Positions 46,174-61,795 of a stretch of DNA of 64,000 nt are shown piece by piece. The translations under genes were made by a program, and so were the position numbers. The notes beneath the pieces were generated by a model. It was not told the origin of the DNA, ran no database searches, and saw only the letters and a list, made by a program, of their open reading frames with translations. Origin of the DNA: a virus; IMG/VR virus record IMGVR_UViG_3300005253_000045, positions 1 through 64,000 of that record. One strand, given 5' to 3'. Each line of letters opens with the position of its first letter. Position 1 is the first letter of the stretch.

Positions 46174-46523
46174 CGCGCCTCCCCCAATAGGCTCCCGCCC
46201 GATTGCTTCAGCTTGATGGAGAAAAAAATTAGGGAAGATTCGTAGTCCGTCGTTCGGAACTCCTCGCCATGGTCTAGGCGGCAGGCACGGGCCTGAGCCT
46301 TCAACTCACGCACAGTGTACTTCTTAAGAAGCTGCCTCGCTACCCGCATCTCAATAGCTGTCCGTGTGAAGGGTACCCCCATCTTCTCGCACTCCCCCGC
46401 CCAGATGTCGAGGAACTGGAGGTGTGGGGGCTGCTCTCCGGCCCCAGCCTCCGCCACAGCGACGTCCTCGCGGACCCTAAGGCTGAAGCGATGGCCTCCG
46501 TCTGAGACAGTAAGCGTCTTCAC
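46170..46523 (-). CDS. Protein of unknown function
   Basis: The 117 residues contain RVARQLLKKYTVRELKAQARACRL, a helical segment that could bind DNA. It is coupled to both neighbours (ATGA downstream). No family recognised. Confidence 0.5.
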   Translation of the reverse strand: MKTLTVSDGGHRFSLRVREDVAVAEAGAGEQPPHLQFLDIWAGECEKMGVPFTRTAIEMRVARQLLKKYTVRELKAQARACRLDHGEEFRTTDYESSLIFFSIKLKQSGGSLLGEAR

Positions 46524-46524
46524 A

Positions 46525-47019
46525 CTAGCTCTTCTTAGCTGCCTTGCGTGGCGGAGCCTTCGCCTTTTGGTAGGGGCAGGTACTGTGCTTCTCCCAATCA
46601 GACATCTCGCCGCAGTCGGCGCAGTATATGTGACTGTGTTCCTCTATTGAAGCGGTGTAGATGTCATCACCAGAGTCTTCATCCGCCTCCTGGAAGTAGA
46701 GGTCGGATACCCGGAAGTGCCGCCTGTCCGAGGGGAAGGTATCCCCCTCGGCCTGGACGGTGAAGATGATGTCTGCCTCGGGCTTACATACCAGGCAGTA
46801 GCCCTCATTCCGCCGGTCGGTTACAACAGATACGACATCCCCTGTACGGTCTGTGTAGACCACCACCGTAGGTACACTCGTTAGATACTCGAGTAGGAAG
46901 AGACCGCCGCATCCTGCACAGGATTTACTAGGCGGGGGGGCCGCGATGCCAGTGGGGATGTCACGATAAGAACTCAATGGCTCCGTGATGACAGCTTTTC
47001 TCTTGAGTGGGTTTTTCAC
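46525..47019 (-). CDS. Zinc-binding protein of unknown function
   Basis: The 164 residues hold CAGCG, CLVC and CADCG pairs, so two or three zinc ions are likely. The C-terminus is Lys-rich. GTG may be the start. It lies 1 bp after the previous gene in direction of translation. Confidence 0.5.
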   Translation of the reverse strand: MKNPLKRKAVITEPLSSYRDIPTGIAAPPPSKSCAGCGGLFLLEYLTSVPTVVVYTDRTGDVVSVVTDRRNEGYCLVCKPEADIIFTVQAEGDTFPSDRRHFRVSDLYFQEADEDSGDDIYTASIEEHSHIYCADCGEMSDWEKHSTCPYQKAKAPPRKAAKKS

Positions 47020-53205: not shown

Positions 53206-53287
53206 TGGTGGAGGTGGCCAGTGTCGAACTGGCGTCCGGCCGGCCGCGCCTTAGCGCGTTATCCAACCGTCGAGCCCTCTCACCCCC
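53206..53287 (-). ncRNA. Minimal tmRNA-like RNA (tRNA-like domain only), candidate
   Basis: The 82-nt RNA starts GGGGGTG and ends CACCTCC-A-CCA. These make a 7-bp acceptor stem with a G3-U70 pair and A73, the known alanyl-tRNA synthetase identity. The segment GGCTCGACGG matches the tmRNA D-loop region, and GGAC directly before the T-stem GCCAG/CTGGC with loop TTCGACA matches the tmRNA 3' end. Between them GGTTGG pairs with CCGGCC and CGCGC with GCGCG around a UAAG loop, replacing the long mRNA-like domain and pseudoknots. There is no anticodon arm and no D-stem. CCA is encoded. A TATAAT five bases upstream would start transcription at G1. Function is inferred, not shown. Confidence 0.65.
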
Positions 53288-53292
53288 ATACT

Positions 53293-53298
53293 ATTATA
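53293..53298 (-). promoter_or_regulatory. -10 box in front of the tmRNA-like RNA
   Basis: TATAAT on the minus strand ends 5 bases before the RNA 5' end, so transcription should start at or near the mature first G. No clear -35 hexamer is present. Confidence 0.6.
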
Positions 53299-54900: not shown

Positions 54901-55248
54901 CTATCCCCGCCGTATCAGGTAAGTCGTACCGTCGAACTCGACGGAAGTGTAGTCCCTTTGTACGTCTTTGGCCCACCGCTCCCAGTCTATGTAGGATTCC
55001 ATTTGACTGCCGGGGTCAACATATCCTACGTCATAGGCGAAGTCTCGGGCATAGTCCTCGAACTCCTCCTCTGGGATGAGTGTCCTGTCTCCGTGGACGC
55101 TGTCTAGGTCGCCGCCTAGGTCAGTAGTGAGAAGCTTGAGTGCGGCCCAGCGCAAGCTATCCTCTTCGTCAAGTCCCCCATTGGACTCGGCGAGGTCGTT
55201 GAGCTCGTCTAGTTCTTGGGCAAGGTCGTCTAGGTCTAGGTACTCCAT
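54901..55248 (-). CDS. Acidic protein of unknown function (115 aa)
   Basis: The N-terminal half is an acidic helix (LDLDDLAQELDELNDLAE). The acidic surface is compatible with a DNA mimic or an inhibitor, but nothing specific was recognised. Confidence 0.5.
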   Translation of the reverse strand: MEYLDLDDLAQELDELNDLAESNGGLDEEDSLRWAALKLLTTDLGGDLDSVHGDRTLIPEEEFEDYARDFAYDVGYVDPGSQMESYIDWERWAKDVQRDYTSVEFDGTTYLIRRG

Positions 55249-61549: not shown

Positions 61550-61795
61550 CTACCCGTTGCCCCTCTGTCCGCCTCTGCTAGTGCGTTGTCCGTGCGTGCT
61601 AGCTGCGCGGGGGCCGTAGTCACCAACCCCTGTCCGGTATGCTCCTGGCCGGCCATACGGGCCGCTATGCCCTGCCGGCCATTGGAGTGCTGTGTCTTGG
61701 CCTATCTCATCAGATACGGGCGGCCATTCCCGTATGACTACCGCCATAGTTTCGACTGTGCTAGGCGTATCTGCTCTTAGCTTCCGTGCTAACAC
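61550..61795 (-). CDS. Doubtful small protein (81 aa)
   Basis: GTG at 61795 would start an 81-residue, Gly/Arg/Thr-rich product. No SD is convincing, and it overlaps the better gene at 61761-61904. It may be non-coding. Confidence 0.25.
   Translation of the reverse strand: MLARKLRADTPSTVETMAVVIREWPPVSDEIGQDTALQWPAGHSGPYGRPGAYRTGVGDYGPRAASTHGQRTSRGGQRGNG

Follow-up and report, generated by a model that had tools for sequence, protein, structure and literature searches.

The minus strand of the window (the 64,000-nucleotide stretch of viral DNA analysed here) carries at positions 53287–53206 an 82-nt tRNA-like domain (TLD) of a tmRNA from which the message half is absent. Model matches and family conservation support the assignment of this element as a tmRNA reduced to its TLD. 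The fold, the motifs, covariation throughout a family of related elements, a strict alanine identity pair and the spread across phages are established here. As to function, we propose that the phage gene may encode a coding-sequence-less tmRNA acting as a competitive antagonist of host tmRNA via SmpB and EF-Tu, a reading to which we give about an even chance.

Along the minus strand, the element runs GGGGGTG, AGAGGGCTCGAC, GGTTGG, ATAA, CGCGC, TAAG, GCGCG, G, CCGGCC and GGAC, followed by GCCAG, TTCGACA, CTGGC, CACCTCC, A and CCA (Table 1). The tmRNA D-loop segment reads GGCTCGAC. The features characteristic of the tmRNA TLD are all present (a 7-bp acceptor stem, G3–U70, A73, a TTCGA T loop, GGNTTCGAC and GGAC, and no anticodon arm), as are the encoded CCA, the 5-bp T-stem and the TTCGACA loop that the preliminary description had listed for an 82-nt minus-strand element. 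The 31-nt insert between CGAC and GGAC folds as a single hairpin: GGTTGG pairs with CCGGCC and CGCGC with GCGCG, with ATAA and G facing each other in the internal loop and TAAG at the tip. It thus consists of an outer P2 helix of 6–8 bp and an inner stem of 4–5 bp, separated by an asymmetric A-rich internal loop. Both of the short helices described earlier exist, but they are parts of this one hairpin. In the minimum-energy fold the acceptor pairing is shifted; the centroid contains acceptor, P2 and T arm, and z is −2.3 relative to shuffled sequences.

Table 1. Features of the element and its upstream region (window coordinates)
Feature	Position	Strand	Basis
TATAAT, resembling a −10 box, 5 nt upstream of G1 and lacking a good −35	53293..53298	-	consensus match only
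Acceptor stem 5' strand GGGGGTG (nt 1–7)	53281..53287	-	sequence, RF00023, R1
G3 (of the G3–U70 pair)	53285	-	
D-loop-like segment AGAGGGCTCGAC (tmRNA GGNTTCGAC motif)	53269..53280	-	sequence, family statistics
P2 helix 5' strand GGTTGG, directly after CGAC	53263..53268	-	fold, covariation
ATAA, 5' side of A-rich asymmetric internal loop	53259..53262	-	fold, family statistics
Inner hairpin CGCGC-TAAG-GCGCG, caps P2 and replaces pseudoknots and mRNA-like domain	53245..53258	-	fold, covariation
P2 helix 3' strand CCGGCC, directly before GGAC	53238..53243	-	fold, covariation
GGAC joint between P2 and T arm	53234..53237	-	sequence; in all family members but imposed by scan pattern
T arm GCCAG-TTCGACA-CTGGC (5 bp, 7-nt loop)	53217..53233	-	sequence, T-stem covariation
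Acceptor stem 3' strand CACCTCC, A73 and encoded CCA	53206..53216	-	sequence, family
U70; discriminator A73; CCA	53212; 53209; 53208–53206	-	

An insert of 31 nt is too short to leave room for a tag frame and pseudoknots, and the mRNA-like domain (resume codon, tag frame, pseudoknots) is absent from the element, as had been stated at the outset. We therefore class the element as a coding-sequence-less tmRNA and not as a working tagging tmRNA. It has the structure of this class: a TLD homologous to that of tmRNA, acceptor halves made contiguous by a closed P2, and no tag frame.

The Rfam tmRNA model RF00023 matches the element with 53 bits (E = 5e-18; curated gathering cut-off, 47 bits), and the match spans model positions 1–374, and hence both model ends, within 82 nt. 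RF02544 was in the same library, and RF00023 was the best match. (In E-value mode on a short stretch, Rfam returned a misleading truncated alignment.) Forty-four related virus records score 47.7–81 bits over the corresponding element. Our family covariance model R1 gives 75.5 bits for the window element, which is itself one of the 18 R1 seed rows. ARAGORN calls neither a tRNA nor a tmRNA in the window or in the remainder of the record, and the tRNA model RF00005 has no match in the whole 75.6-kb record; neither detects a cloverleaf with an anticodon stem-loop in the element, and a canonical tRNA is thus rejected. The preliminary description had proposed the RF00023 search and a search for covariation in related phages as checks, and had named a canonical tRNA fold as one finding that would overturn it; both checks, the second of them strongly (see below), bear it out.

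We collected related elements from IMG/VR with two pattern scans. The first, which constrained neither position 70 nor the P2 region, returned 35 contigs. L002, L015, L018, L025, L033 and L034 were dropped on inspection as chance matches; all others have T70, A73 and the same closed P2. The second scan, built on the 3' side with T70 fixed and position 3 free, returned at least 120 contigs. Together the scans yield at least 105 distinct sequences (window included) from at least 139 loci, which cluster into 63 at 80% identity. G1, G2, T6, G7, TYGAC, GGAC and TTCRA, and in the second scan A73, were imposed by the patterns and do not count as evidence.

P2 was not imposed. Since MAFFT misaligned the acceptor, P2 covariation was first tested on motif-anchored columns, with no structure-fitted alignment, by comparing nucleotide i after CGAC with nucleotide i before GGAC. 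Pairs 1–6 are standard in 98, 96, 90, 93, 92 and 79% of the 105 sequences, compared with 41–44% for shuffled partners and 23–48% when the partner is slid by 1–2 nt, and all six standard pair types occur at pairs 2–6. In the alignment fitted by R1 (101 matches), 97.6% of cells pair and the covariation score is 0.73, as against 0.14 for shuffled and at most 0.09 for slid columns; changes on both sides are found at every pair of P2 and of the inner stem and at four of the five T-stem pairs. Family members score 45–93 bits with R1 overall. In one R1-scored source set, clear members reach 56–90 bits and all other sequences, among them ordinary tmRNA 3' ends, tRNAs and attP copies, stay at or below 38 bits.

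These compensatory changes bear on whether the element could be a functionless remnant: a degenerate ssrA, an attachment-site copy or a decayed tRNA. Phages do carry ssrA 3' ends as attP, as in Mycobacterium phages Adephagia and Milly, where they lie beside an integrase. However, compensation extends over 101–105 sequences in P2, the inner hairpin, the acceptor and the T stem, and the record has no integrase or resolvase family match. For the family, covariation refutes a remnant or pseudogene, and with it the degenerate RNA that the preliminary description had kept as an alternative; we give this reading a next to negligible probability. The earlier dismissal of an attP copy of an ssrA 3' end stands, given that the element retains its 5' half, an acceptor complete on both sides and a covarying P2. 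True attP copies score poorly with R1 (Adephagia, 15.5 bits; Milly, none among the matches listed), and matches in Mycobacterium cluster K are attP, not members of the family. Single copies may nonetheless be dead, such as the second one in L109. The L109 virus has two copies 1.3 kb apart (5–81 and 1317–1392); in the first, the T loop has diverged to GGCAGTA, and the copy with this loop is possibly a decaying duplicate.

The insert is 25–33 nt long in nearly all members of the window class. Scans for other insert lengths, in which true elements have all seven acceptor positions paired, reveal a class with 12–16-nt inserts, about 66 nt in total, that has a single short hairpin and accounts for most of 73 contigs, and a longer class with inserts of about 52–76 nt (27 matches) and totals of about 110–125 nt. 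Across classes, the insert thus ranges from 12 to 76 nt; the TLD is constant and the cap varies, so that the TLD looks like the working part. Mid-size forms with inserts of about 60–73 nt occur in L285, L286, L292, L293, L299, L303, L305 and L314; some share motifs (CAGTAGGTGAAAATGCCC...GAAGACACTGAAAA in L293, GCGGGACGATTATAGCCC in L309), and such coding-sequence-less forms may hold a pseudoknot.

Upstream of the family, −10-like hexamers peak sharply 6 nt before nucleotide 1. Such a spacing would place the transcription start at the mature 5' end or beside it, but several contributing members are mutually related and the prediction is suggestive only.

The G3–U70 wobble is the major identity element for alanyl-tRNA synthetase (AlaRS). 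Position 3 is G in all 105 sequences and never A, although it was free in the second scan, in which T70 was fixed; a mirror scan of IMG/VR with C70 in place of T70 gave no matches. Taken together, these results indicate that the wobble is actively kept. Such strict conservation would be expected if charging matters.

Short elements of this kind (minis) are also present, unannotated, in cultured phages: Streptomyces phages LuckySocke (inside a tRNA array) and BRock, Pontimonas phage phiPsal1 (between the prohead protease and capsid genes) and Stenotrophomonas phage Jojan60 (overlapping a hypothetical CDS). R1 confirms all four with 76–90 bits. ARAGORN, the usual tRNA/tmRNA finder, misses minis: on 60 viral loci it called none and reported one false long tmRNA, in L003 (1436–1922), where it fuses the 3' half of a mini to upstream sequence that is unrelated to it and calls a 25-aa 'tag'. 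Published counts of one-piece phage tmRNAs obtained with ARAGORN may include such false cases, and phage annotation needs separate models for coding-sequence-less tmRNAs.

Bacterial genomes hardly ever contain minis. Among 84,980 genomes of bacteria and archaea, 102 stretches matched the same pattern; seven of them are real minis, in records of Acidimicrobiaceae, Sinomicrobium, Prochlorococcus, a cyanobacterium, Mycobacterium, Phytoactinopolyspora (near a terminase gene) and Cellulomonas. Wide chromosomal occurrence is rejected, as most of the 102 rows are ordinary tmRNA 3' ends preceded by chance by GG...TG (for example, in Vibrio and Lachnospiraceae). Six of the seven mini-bearing genomes also have a full-length tmRNA; Prochlorococcus has a permuted form, which the model used need not detect.

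The window belongs to a 75,628-base virus record (G000) that encodes phage proteins, among them a major head protein, a tail fibre, a DnaB-type helicase and a DNA polymerase. Searches with blastn of the window and of the element against INPHARED revealed no near phage, and the helicase, used to seek relatives at the protein level, gave distant matches only. SmpB (PF01668) was not found in G000 or in 48 related records, many of them fragments. Elsewhere on the minus strand, 61696–61757 is probably a type II hammerhead ribozyme (RF02276, Hammerhead_II, positions 1–66 of 66; 39 bits, cut-off 37), and a 115-aa ORF (54901–55248) has weak similarity to the anti-restriction family phrog_2059 (E 8e-7) and to phrog_25535 (E 2e-12).

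The tmRNA model finds a single place in G000, which also argues against a two-piece tmRNA, in which a message part encoded elsewhere would join the element in trans. In permuted tmRNAs, the acceptor halves are on separate RNAs joined via an open P2. Here, a single 82-nt stretch holds both halves in standard order, and P2 forms a closed hairpin that covaries; so, although two-piece tmRNAs occur in some bacteria and marine phages (PMC9004378), we reject a permuted form and regard the two-piece reading as very improbable.

We envisage that the 82-nt RNA would be charged with alanine by host AlaRS during infection, bound by SmpB and EF-Tu of the host, and delivered to ribosomes that have stalled on broken mRNAs, where it would take the place of host tmRNA. 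Since neither G000 nor the related records show SmpB, the host protein would be used, and the normal tmRNA of six of the seven mini-bearing bacterial genomes means that a tmRNA is available to compete with. Trans-translation could then not finish, there being no resume codon or tag frame; nascent chains would be neither tagged by SsrA nor degraded, and SmpB and stalled ribosomes would lose their host tmRNA to the mini. The function suggested in the preliminary description, an alanylated RNA that may act at stalled ribosomes or compete with tmRNA/SmpB, is compatible with the evidence. We favour antagonism of tagging because an RNA resembling the TLD-only RNA of mycobacteriophage DS6A is reported to inhibit tmRNA strongly in E. 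coli, irrespective of charging (PMC4131195, PMC11915505, citing Mao et al. 2009), perhaps by titrating SmpB (PMC4131195).

Two observations speak against antagonism. The strict G3–U70 exceeds the needs of a pure SmpB sponge, the reported inhibition being charge-independent, which suggests that charging adds something in nature, for instance delivery by EF-Tu or the ability to accept the nascent chain. Also, one 123.6-kb virus (G006; L056) carries both an 82-nt mini (46486–46567) and a 392-nt full-length tmRNA (77588–77979, 94 bits), which is odd for a pure antagonist or simple sponge. Both points would fit a rescue without tagging, in which the alanylated mini with SmpB takes over the nascent chain, and drop-off or hydrolysis of the peptidyl-mini then makes ribosomes available to phage translation while the product is spared. 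Such a role has been suggested for coding-sequence-less mitochondrial tmRNAs, and the conserved charging signal suits a peptide acceptor better than a passive sponge. In 41 of the 60 viral loci, ARAGORN finds no tRNA gene in the examined stretch, as if the mini were kept for its own sake, and the mitochondrial forms co-occur with SmpB (PMC11915505). However, the sole TLD-only RNA test reported showed inhibition of tmRNA (PMC4131195), and no known step recycles the ribosome after transfer to a message-less TLD. The strict G3–U70 keeps tagless rescue a serious rival, albeit a doubtful one. In a separate case, Tunturiibacter phage Tunturi_4 (PP885687; L270, 43879–44293) has a 132-nt sub-threshold tmRNA match (41 bits) adjoining a 115-aa CDS annotated as an RF-1 domain peptide chain release factor; this may be a further reduced tmRNA with an ArfB-like rescue factor next to it.

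AlaRS and EF-Tu recognise the acceptor identity, the T arm and A73, and some copies lie within phage tRNA arrays. The mini might therefore act outside trans-translation as a small alanylated RNA, either by sequestering AlaRS, EF-Tu or a host factor that targets tRNAs, or by donating alanine. AlaRS and EF-Tu alone, however, have no need for the tmRNA-specific GGNTTCGAC and GGAC or for a P2 placed as in tmRNA, and we consider this role unlikely.

These findings make a concrete question testable, namely whether phages block or bypass trans-translation and whether alanine charging of a message-less tmRNA is selected; the combination of a strict G3–U70 with variable inserts leads to sharp predictions for mutants. 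More broadly, we see an even chance that small alanine-charged tRNA-like RNAs, arisen by convergence or held in common, serve phages infecting many bacterial phyla by seizing stalled ribosomes with the help of host SmpB. If true, these RNAs would give phages a general means, unannotated until now, of countering trans-translation or of replacing it without tags, with several size classes and a conserved P2 module of their own.

The element is not a new kind of molecule, as TLD-only RNAs are known from DS6A, a plastid and coding-sequence-less mitochondrial forms. DS6A is reported to have a TLD-only tmRNA (PMC4131195, PMC11915505) and resembles the minis in being a phage-encoded tmRNA with little beyond the TLD and in its inferred action on tmRNA/SmpB. 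It is, however, the one TLD-only phage in the literature searched, compared here by description, whereas the present family has at least 105 distinct, structurally constrained sequences with size classes, a broad host spread and covariation, some of them unannotated in published genomes. The coding-sequence-less plastid tmRNA of Mallomonadaceae (about 65 bp; PMC11915505) likewise has both acceptor halves and a T arm and no tag frame, and by description its size is near that of the phage class of about 66 nt; unlike the minis, it is organellar and presumably reductive. Jakobid and oomycete mitochondrial tmRNAs (RF02544) have also lost the tag frame and retained the RNA, with SmpB in the cell, but are mitochondrial. 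Full-length phage tmRNAs (Streptomyces phage Daubenski; Mycobacterium phages Alice and HyRo) share with the minis a phage-borne ssrA and the same TLD, but are annotated as full (related phages list tag peptides), are about 370–410 nt long where measured, and have a long interrupted P2 in place of the short closed hairpin; the closed P2 module is absent from the full-length tmRNAs compared. As far as the searched literature shows, the breadth among phages, the closed P2 module, the size classes, the covariation and the conservation of the identity pair are new.
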